In this document: in pieces, positions 7,307 to 46,270 of the stretch
Layout: each line of letters begins with the position of its first letter
How positions within the stretch are numbered: the stretch's first letter is position 1
Source: an uncultured Clostridia bacterium
GTDB lineage: Bacteria; Bacillota; Clostridia; Oscillospirales; Oscillospiraceae
Assembly (NCBI GenBank): GCA_946542465.1
Contig: CAMNKQ010000002.1
Span: 1 to 47,056 of the forward strand
Length of the DNA stretch: 47,056 nucleotides
Reading direction: 5' to 3'
Notes under the pieces: model-generated
Told to the model about the DNA's origin: nothing
Databases searched by the model: none
What the model saw: only the letters and a program-made list of their open reading frames with translations
Program-made: the position numbers and the translations under genes

Positions 7307-7374
7307 AACGAGAATAAAACCAATCTCCAGGGAAGACCTGTGCGTCAGGCTTTTCCCTGGAGATTTTCGTATTA

Positions 7375-7536
7375 TACTGATATCGGATAGGAAGGTCGGA
7401 AATGATTTTCGAGGCAGAATTGCGCCAGGCAAGGCGGCCTCCGCAGAGCATAATGGAGATATATGGTCAAGGAGGCCAACGCAGTATGGCAGTTTTCTGG
7501 CCGGAAAGAATCCGAGATTTCTATCAGATATCAGTA
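7375..7536 (+). repeat. MITE-like element, repeat family C copy 1 (162 bp)
   Basis: Terminal inverted repeats TACTGATATC(G/T)GATAG...CTATCAGATATCAGTA, flanked by TTA on both sides; inverted homologous copy of identical length at 16326-16487. Confidence 0.85.
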
Positions 7537-7908
7537 TTACTTGTTCTTGTCCTTCGGCTTGAAGAGCAGCGCCGCCAGCAGGCCGAAGAACACCGCCGCC
7601 GCAGTGCCGCCGGAGGCCGCGGTAAAGCCGCCGGTGAAGGCGCCCAGCAGGCCCTGCTCCGCCACGGCCTTTTTGACGCCCTTGGCCAGGGCGTTGCCGA
7701 AGCCGGTGAGGGGCACGGTGGCACCGGCCCCGGCCCAGTCGGCCAGAGGCTGATAGAGGCCCAGCGCCCCGAGAATCACCCCGGCCACCACGTAGCCGGT
7801 GAGGATCCGGGCGGGGGTCAGGCGCGTGCGGTCGATGAGCAGCTGGCCGATCAGGCACAGCAGCCCACCCACCAGAAAGGCCTTTCCGTATTGCAACAGC
7901 GTCTCCAT
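7537..7908 (-). CDS. spoVAE: Stage V sporulation protein AE (SpoVAE)
   Basis: METLLQYGKAFLVGGLLCLIGQLLIDRTRLTPARILTGYVVAGVILGALGLYQPL...GFGNALAKGVKKAV; directly downstream of spoVAD. Confidence 0.9.
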   Translation of the reverse strand: METLLQYGKAFLVGGLLCLIGQLLIDRTRLTPARILTGYVVAGVILGALGLYQPLADWAGAGATVPLTGFGNALAKGVKKAVAEQGLLGAFTGGFTAASGGTAAAVFFGLLAALLFKPKDKNK

Positions 7909-9831: not shown

Positions 9832-10341
9832 TTAATCCGCGATCAGGACGCAGGTGCCGTCGCTGATCTGCAGGGCGGTGTTCTCCGTCAGCGTGACGCG
9901 CACGGAGTCCCCGGCCTTGAGCTCAAAGGATTTGAGCACCGCGCCGTAGTCCCCGAGGATCTCCACCTGGGTGTTGAGTACCTCGCTCATCATCCCGCCC
10001 AGGGAGCCGAAGAGGCCGCCCCAGTCCTCACCGCCGAGGGAGCTGGCCGCGTCACCCAGCGCGGAATACATGCCGCCGAAGTCGTCACCCGCGGTGGAGA
10101 GGCATTTGAGAGTGTAGCTGCCCGGGAGAATGTCCTCCCCGACGATGAACTTGCCCTCCCGGAGCGTGACCTCCTGGGCCAGGGGCAGGCCGCGGGCGAT
10201 CATCTCCTCCCGGACGGCCTCATAGAGCTGGCGCAGCTCCTCATCGCTGTAGCGGGCGAGGGGATTGTCCTCGGCGCAGGCGGCGGCGCTGACGCTCAGC
10301 ACCAGGGCCAGGATCAGCAGGATCGAAAGCAGTTTTTTCAT
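9832..10341 (-). CDS. Secreted hypothetical protein
   Basis: Signal peptide MKKLLSILLILALVLSVSAAACA; coding-like composition and a ribosome-binding site; family not recognised. Confidence 0.7.
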   Translation of the reverse strand: MKKLLSILLILALVLSVSAAACAEDNPLARYSDEELRQLYEAVREEMIARGLPLAQEVTLREGKFIVGEDILPGSYTLKCLSTAGDDFGGMYSALGDAASSLGGEDWGGLFGSLGGMMSEVLNTQVEILGDYGAVLKSFELKAGDSVRVTLTENTALQISDGTCVLIAD

Positions 10342-10434
10342 AGCAGTTCCTCCTTAATACTATGTCGGTATCGAAAGTATACCCGATGACGGACCGCCCC
10401 GTTGACCCCGTTTCGGGGGCAAGAGACGGCTCTT

Positions 10435-10887
10435 TTACGGCAGCAGCGGGGCGAGACCGTGTTCCCGCAGCAGCGCGTCCACCTCGTGGATCTCGAAGAT
10501 CCGGTTTTCCATGGCCACGCGGATGACCAGGTCGCGGGGGAAGTGGAGAAAGAGCGGGGCCATGCCGTAGCGGATCAGCGCCTCGTTGGTCTCCTCCGGC
10601 GTGAATTCCGCCGCCAGGCAGAGCCGCAGGATCACGTCCCGCTGCCGGGTGCGCTTCTGCTCGGCGATCAGCTTGTAGCCGCAGCGCTCCGGCAGGTCGG
10701 CGGCCAGAAAGACGTTCTGCTGCAAAAGTCCCTTCTCCCGCAGCCTCTCCCGCATGAAGTCGGCGAAGGGATGGGGGCTTGTGATCAGGTCCTTCTGCAT
10801 CCGCCGCAGGAGATCCCCCAGCTCCTCCAGGCGGACCGGCCGCGGCTCCTCCTCCGTCCAGTCCCAGATGTCGTTTTTGTTTTCCAT
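10435..10887 (-). CDS. Hypothetical protein (about 150 aa, predicted helical)
   Basis: MENKNDIWDWTEEEPRPVRLEELGDLLRRMQKDLITSPHPFADFMRERLREKGL...; followed upstream by a plausible RBS; a GTG 9 nt upstream is an alternative start. Confidence 0.65.
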   Translation of the reverse strand: MENKNDIWDWTEEEPRPVRLEELGDLLRRMQKDLITSPHPFADFMRERLREKGLLQQNVFLAADLPERCGYKLIAEQKRTRQRDVILRLCLAAEFTPEETNEALIRYGMAPLFLHFPRDLVIRVAMENRIFEIHEVDALLREHGLAPLLP

Positions 10888-10912
10888 TGTGTTCACCCTT
10901 TCTATAGAGGAA

Positions 10913-10939
10913 CACCGCCCGGGACGAACCCGGGCGGTG
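10913..10939. terminator. GC-rich hairpin
   Basis: CACCGCCCGGG-ACGAA-CCCGGGCGGTG. Confidence 0.6.
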
Positions 10940-10980
10940 CTCTATAAAAGGGGCTGTAAAATTTACGTGGGGGGAACTGA

Positions 10981-11958
10981 TTAGAAATCTATTTCATATT
11001 CAAAATAGCGACGGGACTCTGTCTGCACTTCGCTAGATACGGAGAGACCTCCGGAATACTTCATAGAAGACAGTGCGGCATCAATTTTGGCTGCGTCTTT
11101 CATCTTAATTCCGGAAGAGCTTCCCATGGCAATGGTATATACCTGATGCGTCATGGTGTTATCGCTCATACGCAGGGACACAAGATTCTGGATTTGAGGA
11201 TCATTTTTGAAATAGACGAGAGTCGGTTTGACTGGCGTATGACCAATGCACTGCATCTCTGCGGCAATTTCAACTTTCGAAGAATTGCTGCTTCTGGATT
11301 CGTGGGAGAAATCGGTACTCCCGTTAACTTTTCCGCCAGTTTTTGTGCCAAGCTTTCCCTTGACGCTGTTTGCGTTGAAAGCGGCAGCTTCTTCCTTGAA
11401 TGTCACGCGAAAATGCTTTGCACCGAGATCCTGCGCGATTTTTTGCAGCTCGCTGACACGGGCAACTCTGAGCCGGCTGAAGTATTCGTCCAAGGCAATA
11501 TAATGATCTCTATCGCAGGGATCAACGTAGTACAGATCACTGTCCATGTTAGGCTCAAAGGAGAGCCCGAAAGCCTCGGCTTTGTCAGGATAGATGTTGA
11601 CGATCCGCAACTCCTTGTGGACAGACTCATAGCCGATGGAACCTTGGCAGATTTCACTTTCGGCGTGCTTCTTGTCCATCTCAATTACACGAATCAGCTT
11701 CGGCATCAGGAAGTCTGTACTGTCCAAGTCATCCTCAAAGATCGGGCATAGCGCTTTTCGCTCCGCCTCTTGACGTGTTTGCGCTCTCTTTTCGTTCCAT
11801 TGATCCGTCAGCGAACTAATGTCTTTCAAATCCAGCTTGCCGTCACTGTTTTGGTCAACGGTGTTCACGACGGTTTTCTTTGCTTTGTCGAACAAATCCG
11901 CAGCCGCTTTCCCCTTGCCGGCGACAACGGCTTTTATATCCAACTTTTTCTTTTCCAT
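10981..11958 (-). CDS. Uncharacterised protein with an EF-hand/dockerin-like calcium motif near the N-terminus
   Basis: DQNSDGKLDLKDISSL motif; Ser/Thr/Gly-rich alternating C-terminal half; GAGG ribosome-binding site; AT-richer than surroundings. Confidence 0.8.
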   Translation of the reverse strand: MEKKKLDIKAVVAGKGKAAADLFDKAKKTVVNTVDQNSDGKLDLKDISSLTDQWNEKRAQTRQEAERKALCPIFEDDLDSTDFLMPKLIRVIEMDKKHAESEICQGSIGYESVHKELRIVNIYPDKAEAFGLSFEPNMDSDLYYVDPCDRDHYIALDEYFSRLRVARVSELQKIAQDLGAKHFRVTFKEEAAAFNANSVKGKLGTKTGGKVNGSTDFSHESRSSNSSKVEIAAEMQCIGHTPVKPTLVYFKNDPQIQNLVSLRMSDNTMTHQVYTIAMGSSSGIKMKDAAKIDAALSSMKYSGGLSVSSEVQTESRRYFEYEIDF

Positions 11959-12011
11959 ATGAATTACCTCAAAGCACTAATCTAATAGCGCGATCTAATT
12001 ATTTGTAGAGC

Positions 12012-12875
12012 TTAATGGATTGAATTATTCTCCTCACCATCCTTTGGGGATATGGAATCAGCACGCATATCCCTTCTATGCTTTTGACTGTTTGCTTGCC
12101 AAGCAAGCAAGTGACTCAAAGCATCAAAGCCAGTGTATTTTTTTATTAGCATAAAGAAAAAGAGGCAAACCAGCAAGGGAATAATACAGGAAGTAACAAT
12201 CAATACAGCAATGCTTTCAATAAAACGATTGATGATGTTAGAAATCTTACGCTTAAGAGTTTCTGATGTTTCGGATAGGCGGCTTAGGATAGATTGGACT
12301 CCAATTTGATCGTTATCTTCTGCCAACTCTGCCGTCTCGTTTGCCAAATTCTCGGCGGCAGATATAGTTGATTCTATAGATGCTTGATATGTTTTATAAA
12401 TCATATCAGAGGCGCCTATGCCAGCTGGAATAACTAATGAGATTCCCAAAGTTACAAGAACAAGATTATATCCTATACGTTGCAGGAAAGAGTTTCCGAT
12501 TATTTGACTGATTCCAAATAAACCGCAAATAATTGGAATTAAGTAACGGCAAGCGACGACAGGAATTATGGAAAGAAGGTACTTTTCAGAATAAAGAACG
12601 CATAGAATAAACAGATAATACTGGGAAAAATCTGCAAGTTTATCAGCTATTGGATTTGCTATATCACTCGGGAGAGCAGAAACACCAACGGAAGCTAAAG
12701 ACGAGGTCGTGGTTAATGCTAGAACAGTCTTTATTTTTTCGTTTATTGAAAGTACTTGGTTCGCATATATTTCGGGGGAAGCCAATTTATCAGCTAAAAT
12801 CAGATTTGAGATGACAGCAATTAAAACCAGAAAGAGAATTAGCGATGTTTTTTTTAAAAGTTTATTCGTATTCAT
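12012..12875 (-). CDS. Uncharacterised multi-TM membrane protein
   Basis: Several hydrophobic segments (SLILFLVLIAVISNLIL; YYLFILCVLYSEKYLLSIIPVVA; LVLVTLGISLVIPAGIG; IAVLIVTSCIIPLLVCLFFFMLI) separated by a helical NETAELAEDN...LKRKISN segment. Confidence 0.8.
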   Translation of the reverse strand: MNTNKLLKKTSLILFLVLIAVISNLILADKLASPEIYANQVLSINEKIKTVLALTTTSSLASVGVSALPSDIANPIADKLADFSQYYLFILCVLYSEKYLLSIIPVVACRYLIPIICGLFGISQIIGNSFLQRIGYNLVLVTLGISLVIPAGIGASDMIYKTYQASIESTISAAENLANETAELAEDNDQIGVQSILSRLSETSETLKRKISNIINRFIESIAVLIVTSCIIPLLVCLFFFMLIKKYTGFDALSHLLAWQANSQKHRRDMRADSISPKDGEENNSIH

Positions 12876-12898
12876 AAGGCCCTCAACAAGTAATGTGT

Positions 12899-13606
12899 TT
12901 ATTTATTGGCAGCTTGTATTTCCACTGAATAATCAGATATATCAATGATGCTATTTGCAAATGTACGAATTATTGTTTTTGCGTTGTCCTGTGCTCTTTC
13001 TAAAATTCCGGATTCGATTGCTTTATCTTTTACTTCGTTTTGAAAATCATTCAATGCGCTGTTATAGTCGACCATTGTGAATTTGTTTCCCAAACCATTT
13101 TTTTCAGAGTAGATAGTTAAACTCTCTGGATCAATATCTATACTGAAGATTTCCGAAGAAGGAAGATAGACTGTTATTACCCGACGCAAAATGTCTTTTT
13201 CAACGGTGATTTCAGAAAAGTCTACTCCGGCGCAGATAACGCCTGCGTAGGTGGCAAGGAGACTTGATTCAGTAATACCCCACTCTTTTTTCAGAATCTC
13301 TTTGTTTTTAGAATAATTAATAACATCAGTAAACCAGTATTCCTCTGTAATTAACTTTCCTACATCTTGCAATTTTTCTTGAATCACTTCCGGAGGGATA
13401 CCAGTTTCTTCAATTGCACGTTCTTCGATGTTATCATTTGTGAGATTTTCTTCAGATAATAGAGTTTCGGTAGGAGAAGGTAGTGTACTGGATAAATCTT
13501 TATTCAAGGGATGCGCAAAGTGTATTGCTACTACAGTAAGGGTAGCGATAACTAATAATACAATTATCAGAATCCATAACATAGTCTTATTTTTTTCTTT
13601 GACCAT
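12899..13606 (-). CDS. DUF4230 domain-containing membrane-anchored protein
   Basis: N-terminal TM then LQDVGKLITEEYWFTDVINYSK...SSLLATYAGVICAGVDFSEITVEKD...ITVYLPSSEIFSIDIDPESLTIYSEKNGLGN, typical of DUF4230; GGAGG RBS 6 nt before ATG at 13606. Confidence 0.82.
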   Translation of the reverse strand: MVKEKNKTMLWILIIVLLVIATLTVVAIHFAHPLNKDLSSTLPSPTETLLSEENLTNDNIEERAIEETGIPPEVIQEKLQDVGKLITEEYWFTDVINYSKNKEILKKEWGITESSLLATYAGVICAGVDFSEITVEKDILRRVITVYLPSSEIFSIDIDPESLTIYSEKNGLGNKFTMVDYNSALNDFQNEVKDKAIESGILERAQDNAKTIIRTFANSIIDISDYSVEIQAANK

Positions 13607-13668
13607 TTTTTCCTCCATAATACAAAAGCATCTTTCAATATGATTCGACAACAAATTCATTATAATAA

Positions 13669-13848
13669 AAATGGAAGGAATATGCAAGGACAAACCAAAT
13701 TCCAAACTGTGAACTGACGCCAATAGACTGCATTGCCAAGCGCGGGAGGCTTGACAATTTGGCCGGGCGGCTTCTTGCAATGAGTTCAGAAAAAGCAAAG
13801 AGGGAGCACTTTGACGAGATCGGGTGCAAACAGCGGGGAATCGAATAA
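13669..13848 (+). pseudogene. Possible remnant C-terminus of a lost gene at the edge of the AT-rich insert
   Basis: Open frame without a usable start: ...PIDCIAKRGRLDNLAGRLLAMSSEKAKREHFDEIGCKQRGIE*; protein-like composition. Confidence 0.3.
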
Positions 13849-13919
13849 ACCTGCCGGTGTTCAATCTGGCAGGCCGGTTTTAGGTCAGGGCAGGCGTCAC
13901 CGAGCAGGGAAAAGAAATA

Positions 13920-16324: not shown

Positions 16325-16325
16325 A

Positions 16326-16487
16326 TACTGATATCTGATAGAAATCTCGGATTCTTTCCGGCCAGAATTGTGCCATACTGCGTTGGCCTCCTTGACCATA
16401 TATCTCCATTATGCTCTGCGGAGTCCGCCTTGTCTGGCGCAATTCTGCCTCGAAAATCATTTCCGACTTTCCTATCAGATATCAGTA
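16326..16487 (-). repeat. MITE-like element, repeat family C copy 2 (162 bp)
   Basis: Reverse-complement homologue of 7375-7536 with the same TIRs and TTA on both sides. Confidence 0.85.
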
Positions 16488-16511
16488 TTACAGCCGTTTT
16501 TCCGCTTGACT

Positions 16512-16955
16512 TCAGTCCTCGATGGTGACCTCACCGTTTTCCCCGATGCTCACCATCATGCCGGTCTGCACGGCCTCCAGAAATTCATTTCCCAGCGAGT
16601 CCACCACGGGCATGGGGTTGTCCGTCCACACGTCGCCCAGGATCGCGCCAGAGGCGGCCAGGGAGTCGATGGGCTTGGAGAAGAGCATGCAGGCCGGGGC
16701 CTTGCCCAGGGCGCAGGCGGTGTAGAGCACCATACCGCCGGTGGTGGAGCCGATGGTCATCGGCAGGCACAGGGCCTTGCCCAGCATGGGCTTCTTGTAG
16801 AGATCGGCGTTGTTCTGGTCGCCGCATTTGACCTGCTTATCGCCGAACATCAGGGCCATCTGATAGCTGGCCAGGGTGTTGAAGCCGCCATGGCTCACCA
16901 GAGCCTCGGCCCGGCAAGTGCCGGGGACGATAACGCGGCCTTTAAAAACTTTCAT
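16512..16955 (-). CDS. Aconitase X swivel domain protein (DUF126, small subunit)
   Basis: KGRVIVPGTCRAEALVSHGGFN...GSTTGGMVLYTACALGKAPACMLF..DSLAASGAIL. Confidence 0.88.
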   Translation of the reverse strand: MKVFKGRVIVPGTCRAEALVSHGGFNTLASYQMALMFGDKQVKCGDQNNADLYKKPMLGKALCLPMTIGSTTGGMVLYTACALGKAPACMLFSKPIDSLAASGAILGDVWTDNPMPVVDSLGNEFLEAVQTGMMVSIGENGEVTIED

Positions 16956-16956
16956 C

Positions 16957-18231
16957 TCAGACCCTCCCTCCGGTGATGATGTCCAGGATCTCCGCCTCCG
17001 TGTAATAGCGGGCGCTGGTGTAGGTGCGCAGCTTGTTGGAGGAGGTGATCACGTTTTTCTTTTTGCAGAGGGGATTGTTCATGTACATGAGCGGGCAGAT
17101 ATAGCTCAGCACCACGCCCATGCGCTCCAGCCGGTAGGCACCCATGGTCTTTTCAAACTCCCGGATGACCGGGGTCGGGGCGGTAAAGACCGTGGGCACG
17201 GCCACCTTCTTGCGCCCGTTTTTCCGCAGACCCGCTTCCACCGCGTCGGTCCAGTCCTTGAGCTGCTGGAGGGACATGTGCGGGCAGCCGACAAAGCAGA
17301 GCTCCGGCTTGGCCTCGGGCTTTTTCCAGACGATGGGATAATTGGCCTTGACGCGCTCCAGCTCTTTGTCGTCGATCACGTAGACCTGCGCGTCGGGGAG
17401 GATCAGGCTCTCGCCCAGCTCCTGCGCCTCGGGGGTGAGGCCGGCGATGTGGTAGAGGCCCACCGCGCCGTTGGAGGCGGTGGCCGCGCCGAAGTCCTTC
17501 AGATAGGCCTTGGCCTCATCGTTCAGCTCCGTGCCCAGCCAGGGCTCCAGCCCCTTGACGTAGGGCACCTCTTCCATGACCTTCATGCCGATGGCCGAGC
17601 CCAGCAGCTGGGCCTCCGGCCTGTGCTGACATTTGACCTCCACGACCCAGCTGGCCTTGCGGCCCGCATCGGTCAGCAGGCCGAACTCAGGGACAAAACC
17701 GGCGATGGAGCCCATCAGCTCGATCATGCCGGAGTTGCGGTTGCAGCGGGCGCCCAGGACGGAGTTGGCGTAGACCACGGCGGAGGATTCCGCCCAGGAG
17801 AGCACGTCGCCCTTCTTCGGCGTGTTGCCCACCTGGTCCAGATAGCAGGCGCAGGTGTAGTCGTCATCGTTCGTGATGCCCAGCTTGCGCATCTGCTCCT
17901 CGTAGCGCTGCTGCTGGGTGTACATGATCTTTTTGAACACCAGGTCGTCCAGCAGGGAAGAGGGCACCCGGGGGTCCAGCGGCTTGGGATCGGCGGTGAA
18001 CTTCTGGTTGGCGGGGAGCCCGGCCGCGATCAGCGTGTCGTAGAGATCGTAGACCGGCTTCATGACCTCCAGACCGAAGGAGATCACCGTGTGGCCGTAG
18101 CTGCTGGTGACCGGCACCATGCGCTCGGCCCCAAAGGTGTCGCCATACATGACAAGGGTCTTGACGATCTTGGCCATGACCTCGCCCTGGCTTCCGTCCA
18201 GAAGGGCCTGCTGCTCCGGCGTCAGTTTCAT
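16957..18231 (-). CDS. Aconitase X catalytic domain protein (DUF521, large subunit)
   Basis: MKLTPEQQALLDGSQGEVMAKIVKTLVMYGDTFGAERMVPVTSSYGH, WAESSAVVYANSVLGARCNRNSGMIELM, CFVGCPHMSLQQL; adjacent to the small subunit. Confidence 0.9.
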   Translation of the reverse strand: MKLTPEQQALLDGSQGEVMAKIVKTLVMYGDTFGAERMVPVTSSYGHTVISFGLEVMKPVYDLYDTLIAAGLPANQKFTADPKPLDPRVPSSLLDDLVFKKIMYTQQQRYEEQMRKLGITNDDDYTCACYLDQVGNTPKKGDVLSWAESSAVVYANSVLGARCNRNSGMIELMGSIAGFVPEFGLLTDAGRKASWVVEVKCQHRPEAQLLGSAIGMKVMEEVPYVKGLEPWLGTELNDEAKAYLKDFGAATASNGAVGLYHIAGLTPEAQELGESLILPDAQVYVIDDKELERVKANYPIVWKKPEAKPELCFVGCPHMSLQQLKDWTDAVEAGLRKNGRKKVAVPTVFTAPTPVIREFEKTMGAYRLERMGVVLSYICPLMYMNNPLCKKKNVITSSNKLRTYTSARYYTEAEILDIITGGRV

Positions 18232-18459
18232 AGCATCACATCCTTTGTTGTTGATTACTTTCAGTCTATCACGGCGGAAAAGAGAAGTCAACGCAGGGTG
18301 CAAGTCCGAAAAACCGACGGAATGATCCAATATATCCTTAAATATTGAATAATAATAAAAATTATATAATTCCTGTATGGACAAAATGGGGAAGGAAAGA
18401 TACAATATAGCCACAGGAATGGAAACAATTCCGGAATTATCAAACAGGAGGAATGCAAC

Positions 18460-46016: not shown

Positions 46017-46065
46017 AACGAAAAAACAGGTGACGTCCCACGGAGGAGACGTGCCCTGGAGTTTT

Positions 46066-46135
46066 TTCCGATAGTCCGGTCATTTACGGTGTCCGGGTAG
46101 AGACTTCAAATCCATATCATTTGCTTATATCGAAA
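46066..46135 (-). ncRNA. Purine riboswitch (guanine class) upstream of the BMP transporter operon
   Basis: Reverse strand TTTCGATATAAGCAAATGATATGGATTTGAAGTCTCTACCCGGACACCGTAAATGACCGGACTATCGGAA: P1 pairing, ATATAA, GATATGG, TCTCTACC, CACCGTAAATG and GACTAT (C at the ligand-pairing position, by alignment to B. subtilis xpt). Confidence 0.95.
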
Positions 46136-46270
46136 CGATGTTCAATTGCGGCAGCCGCACTGCCCATTGATGACAATATAGTAACAGCGCAGGAGCCAAA
46201 AGTCAAGCGGAAAATTCGTGGATTTCGACATTTTTTGCTTCAAAAAATTGTATAATTTGCATAAGAAAAG

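Follow-up and report, generated by a model that had tools for sequence, protein, structure and literature searches.

In the 47,056-nucleotide stretch of DNA analyzed here (the window), which belongs to an uncultured Clostridia bacterium of the family Oscillospiraceae, a block of three AT-rich genes is composed of two separately inherited modules, namely a DUF4230-P2 gene pair and the gene encoding a soluble protein, P1. The reading we favor, to which we give a probability of about 0.4, is that these two modules are stacked in a defense hotspot and that P1 may be a membrane-directed defense protein: P1 genes were found repeatedly beside phage-defense genes, which makes the family a plausible defense candidate. 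As a system, the block is defense-hotspot cargo, which is a known kind, and the P1 family itself is present in none of the libraries searched. The initial annotation had proposed the block as a candidate for an undescribed system, and this is plausible in the sense of a defense-type locus. The features discussed below are the following:

9832-10341, minus strand: gene encoding a 169-aa protein with an apparent signal peptide, downstream of the 153-aa gene
10435-10896, minus strand: conserved 153-aa gene, left edge of the variable cargo
10910-10942: 14-nt inverted repeat (hairpin), upstream of the 153-aa gene
10981-11958, minus strand: P1 gene (325 aa, soluble protein)
11821-11856, minus strand: EF-hand/dockerin-like loop of 12 residues, DQNSDGKLDLKD (P1 residues 35-46)
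12012-12875, minus strand: P2 gene (287 aa, protein with multiple transmembrane segments)
12899-13606, minus strand: P3 gene (DUF4230, Pfam PF14014)
13607-13881: right edge of the AT-rich block, read by eye

The coordinates of the three codirectional minus-strand open reading frames were confirmed, and so was their close spacing, although the gaps amount to 53 nt (P1/P2) and 23 nt (P2/P3) and not to the 54 and 24 previously given; each of the three genes is preceded by a Shine-Dalgarno-like sequence. The foreign composition attributed to the block is borne out by its GC content (positions 10981-13606), which is 40.3% versus 61.4 ± 2.0% in same-length segments elsewhere in the window, a difference of about 10 standard deviations. 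The GC content of the individual genes is 48% in P1, 37% in P2, and 35% in P3, and the third-position GC is 0.30-0.32 in P2 and P3, 0.56 in P1, and 0.81-0.90 in the neighboring genes. That P1 is unlike P2 and P3 in composition was an early indication of separate histories. The left boundary of the block coincides with the conserved leader of the 153-aa gene. At the right edge, the 3' remnant of an open frame (13640-13849, plus strand, ending in LTPIDCIAKRGRLDNLAGRLLAMSSEKAKREHFDEIGCKQRGIE and a stop codon), which gave no match in searches for its origin, is followed by a hairpin and T-run (about 13848-13881) resembling an intrinsic terminator, beyond which lies a divergent TetR operon. The block region has on its two sides the members of a 164-nt inverted repeat pair (7374-7537 and 16325-16488, 96% complementary); since about 10 further matches occur elsewhere in the same genome, this repeat is not specific to the block and is probably a dispersed, MITE-like element, and a composite transposon was rejected on these grounds. 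Elsewhere in the window, we observed an adjacent gene pair (16512-18300, minus strand), which we take by eye to encode a small and a large subunit of an aconitase X type protein, and a purine riboswitch (46052-46152, minus strand; Rfam RF00167, E 1e-8).

P3 belongs to DUF4230 as previously annotated, with an E value of 9.2e-32 and 110.6 bits against a Pfam PF14014 cut-off of 27 bits. It carries one transmembrane segment at its N-terminus (residues 5-35) and the DUF4230 domain at residues 77-219, and P2 has several transmembrane segments: these are indeed the anchored protein and the membrane protein of the earlier description. No Pfam or NCBIfam family matched P2 above cut-off; P3 had no PADLOC match, P2 gave only a weak coiled-coil match to JetC (E 0.04), and the PHROGs matches were weak for both. 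To our knowledge, DUF4230 is a curated family with no known function; here it is paired with P2. Among 99 relatives, 28 genomes have P2 homologs and 19 have DUF4230, and in 13 congeners a DUF4230 gene is directly followed by P2, mostly at native GC. P1, P2, and P3 were observed together only in the window. Since P1 and P3-P2 differ in distribution as well as in composition, P3-P2 is one module and P1 is another, separately inherited. The single acquired three-gene cassette originally postulated was rejected, P1 and P3-P2 being unlinked in nearly all the relatives. The P3-P2 pair is mostly at native GC in the congeners, and P1 is AT-rich wherever it was measured.

The site upstream of the 153-aa gene is a defense-rich, genus-wide variable site, and the block is its cargo in the window. 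The 153-aa protein, which matched no family, reads like an HTH protein; its gene was found in 23 of the 102 congeners, including the window's own genome, and at many copies of the hotspot the 169-aa gene lies downstream of it. Positions 9833-10957 of the window, comprising the 169-aa gene, the 153-aa gene, and the leader hairpin, give a 74% alignment with G045, which has a comparable hairpin in the corresponding position; the homology stops at 10957, and in G045 another AT-rich gene, encoding a zinc-ribbon DUF4230 protein, lies upstream of the 153-aa gene. Genes matching defense models were detected upstream of the 153-aa gene in 10 relatives, a count that has no matched control of its own. 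The cargo includes EF-hand-EcsC proteins (PDC-S30) in G060 and G040 (E 5e-97 in the case of the G040 protein, the relative in G426 being likewise PDC-S30), an AT-rich pair matching PDC-M09A/B in G129, G100, and G016, an M09A-like protein in G032, AbiEi/AbiEii (AbiE) in G111, a type I methyltransferase in G051, an AbiL/Ari-like ATPase in G116, and an NsnB-like ATPase in G131. For PDC-M09, scores were obtained with the G016 pair, and the assignment was extended to G129 and G100 by similarity. These pairs (L158, L159, and L164) encode proteins of 288-316 aa and 334-367 aa, the second of which has a Gly/Ala-rich hydrophobic core. PDC-M09, a two-gene candidate, thus occupies the site of the window block in three congeners, and M09A has a charged helical N-terminus like that of P1, whereas its Gly/Ala-rich hydrophobic core shows no detectable homology to P1. 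In PADLOC, the PDC families have the status of unvalidated candidates (PMC12988326, PMC11514479).

P1 is a mobile family. Full-length copies are present in about 9 of the 102 congeners, with fragments in a few more, and P1 occurs in approximately 2% of the genomes across the order and class; the family is sporadic and usually standalone. The congeneric P1 genes are AT-rich (41-50% GC in surroundings of 52-64% GC). At 7 of the 22 other P1 loci, a tRNA gene lies within about 500 bp: tRNA-Leu in L007, L008, L010, L011, and L088, tRNA-Thr/Asp in L089, and tRNA-Ser in L107. C-terminal P1 fragments were found in L012, L091, and L095 (G050, G135, and G041, respectively); those of G050 and G041 contain stops and seem to be decayed copies, and the decayed copy of L095 is located at the same tRNA-Asp/Thr pair as the intact P1 of L089. 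At the tRNA-Leu site common to L010 and L011, identity amounts to 93% between the flanking TrpB-like proteins and to only 52% between the P1 proteins, and P1 has therefore been replaced or is evolving much faster. G017 and G139, by contrast, have P1 proteins with 93% identity in unrelated contexts, the DNA in common amounting to about 1.1 kb around the gene. One further copy lies among conjugation and replication genes. A phage or plasmid origin was rejected, as plasmids, phages, and viral contigs gave no match to P1 with the queries tried; one viral contig holds one weak P2 relative.

Several of the P1 loci carry defense genes. In G810 (L124:538-9607), the genes encoding P1, a 678-aa protein (by eye, presumably DUF3800-like), Cas13d (E 2e-226), and Cas1, a CRISPR array of 6 repeats with a spacing of mostly 68 nt, a DUF4230 gene, and a Cas2-like open reading frame are all located on one strand and form a type VI-D locus, with a gap of 51 nt between P1 and the 678-aa gene. 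P1 comes after PD-Lambda-1 (E 9e-151) in G583 and precedes a TIR protein in G433, a Fic protein of PDC-S04 in G282, and AbiEi in G434. Five different defense types are therefore present within two genes of P1, at 5 of the 22 other loci, versus 1-2 of 16 in a control based on the neighbors of P2 (93 genes near P1 and 82 near P2 were scanned). The five loci combine the neighbor scan with individual scans, the TIR protein being below the scan threshold and found individually. The control yielded one clear defense locus (G052) and scattered weak matches, and since it also gave matches to defense models, the enrichment at P1 is not strong alone: the excess is modest and suggestive, not proven. Most of the 22 other P1 loci are surrounded by ordinary chromosomal genes, with neither DUF4230 nor a defense neighbor within two genes. 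Linkage between DUF4230 and P1 was observed in 3 of the 23 loci, those of the window, G017 (where two DUF4230 genes come after P1), and G810; the linkage expected by chance is about 0.0015 per locus, a rough estimate derived from the genus density of DUF4230 (24 hits in 99 genomes), with each genome assumed to hold 2,200 genes, G810 being from another lineage.

The proximity of tRNA genes, the decayed and intact copies at the same tRNA pair, and the copy lying amid conjugation and replication genes would all be expected if P1 were a passenger or maintenance gene of small mobile elements favoring tRNA-proximal or accessory sites, which shares islands with defense genes without playing any part in defense. 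We consider this explanation unlikely, since no recombinase or repeat able to move P1 was found, and the spacing of only 21-51 nt on the same strand from P1 to the TIR gene, the Fic gene, and the Cas13d locus suggests that P1 forms operons with them.

A second, independent DUF4230 gene lies inside a CRISPR-Cas locus in G052 (L061:248-9266), where a 15-repeat CRISPR array, CARF-type genes, Cas6 (E 2e-21 to PDB 6fjw), DUF4230, P2, and EcsC (PDC-S30) are carried on one strand; the CARF matches were assigned to open reading frames according to size and position. No report of DUF4230 within CRISPR loci was found in the literature searched. In G426, which belongs to another genus of the family, an EF-hand-EcsC gene is clustered with P2 and a divergent DUF4230-like gene. 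Compared with the window, these two loci indicate that the third position beside DUF4230-P2 has been filled by P1 (window) or by EcsC (two genomes), and one of the two EcsC proteins has an N-terminus related to that of P1. PDC-S30, an EcsC-like PADLOC candidate, therefore resembles P1 in its N-terminal helix and EF-hand-like loop, in its location upstream of the 153-aa gene (G060 and G040), and in its association with DUF4230-P2 (G426 and G052); it differs in carrying an EcsC-like C-terminal domain, whose sequence is not related to that of the P1 core, and in that P1 has no PADLOC match.

The P2 gene of other families stands alone amid housekeeping genes, its neighbors being, as far as we can judge by eye, genes such as valS and folC; this suggests a general envelope role. 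It is quite conceivable, although we regard it as doubtful, that DUF4230-P2 is an ordinary membrane pair and P1 a cytosolic stress or membrane-maintenance protein, the whole block serving in the envelope or in membrane stress and owing its AT-richness to an AT-rich donor. The native GC of DUF4230-P2 in most congeners is in line with such a role, as is the DUF4230 gene of S. mutans, which adjoins ribosome-biogenesis genes and can be deleted without any significant effect on biofilm (PMC13041782). The sporadic, AT-rich, mobile nature of P1, the two independent DUF4230 genes inside CRISPR-Cas loci, and the abundance of defense-model genes at the hotspot argue against it.

P1 consists of an N-terminal helix with an EF-hand-like loop (residues 35-46) and a conserved core (residues 69-325), which contains a variable disordered loop at about residues 193-227. 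The N-terminal 68 residues are helical, charged, and Ala/Lys-rich, and are related to the N-terminus of EcsC-like proteins. The EF-hand/dockerin-like loop noted earlier is present, with acidic residues or Asn at positions 1, 3, 5, and 12 and Gly at position 6, and is kept in most of the congeneric P1 proteins as well as in the EcsC fusions; since it is missing from distant members (L099, L101, and others), it cannot be said to define the family. The Asp at position 12 is also found in dockerins, but the loops of dockerins and EF-hands are paired or duplicated and dockerins are secreted, whereas P1 has a single loop, without any pairing or duplication, and no signal peptide was seen; nor was any transmembrane segment predicted. 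P1 had no above-cut-off match to any Pfam or NCBIfam family, none in PHROGs or PADLOC, and none to a profile or PDB sequence; one member of the family gave a weak Pfam match to YdgH_BhsA-like.

The model of full-length P1 (pLDDT 71) was replaced by a core model (residues 69-325) built from 22 sequences, with a mean pLDDT of 84 and a pTM of 0.77, in which the elements occur in the order strand, loop, strand, helix, strand, two helices, strand. Foldseek searches with this model gave no match in the PDB (best E 0.5) or among viral structures (best E 0.06). The core may therefore have a new fold, judging from this predicted model against the PDB and viral structures, and neither a catalytic motif nor a known fold was recognized. 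The EF-hand as the fold of P1 was rejected, there being no structural or sequence match. The earlier suggestion that the Ser/Gly region forms membrane beta-hairpins, making P1 a gasdermin/MACPF-like pore-former, now appears highly improbable: the order of strands and helices in the core is loosely reminiscent of such folds, but the structural and sequence searches gave no match to them, the strands are only 7-9 residues long, and the Ser/Gly region corresponds to the variable, low-confidence loop of the core model. The gasdermin/MACPF fold was likewise rejected.

In the favored reading, P3 and P2 travel as a gene pair and would presumably form a membrane complex, while P1, which is soluble and spreads alone, often next to tRNA genes, would act in phage defense. 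The charged helical N-terminus with its calcium-type loop might hold P1 at the membrane or bring it there, possibly docked on P2/P3 in the case of the window, and either sensing or carrying out the response might be the task of the conserved core, in which one loop varies rapidly. Beside DUF4230-P2, the third component may alternatively be an EcsC protein of the PDC-S30 type, whose N-terminus is related to that of P1. A more specific proposal, which strikes us as rather improbable, is that DUF4230-P2 and an exchangeable third protein (EF-hand-P1 or EcsC/PDC-S30) make up a modular membrane-based immune system, sometimes ancillary to CRISPR-Cas (type VI-D in G810, Cas6/CARF in G052), with P1 as a new-fold sensor or effector.

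If P1 is a defense protein, it would represent a Clostridia-wide family that has escaped Pfam, NCBIfam, PHROGs, and PADLOC and whose core matches no solved structure; DUF4230 would gain a testable role, and the findings would point to exchangeable effectors behind a common N-terminal module. The conserved 153-aa gene provides a handle for finding similar cargo in gut and rumen bacteria.
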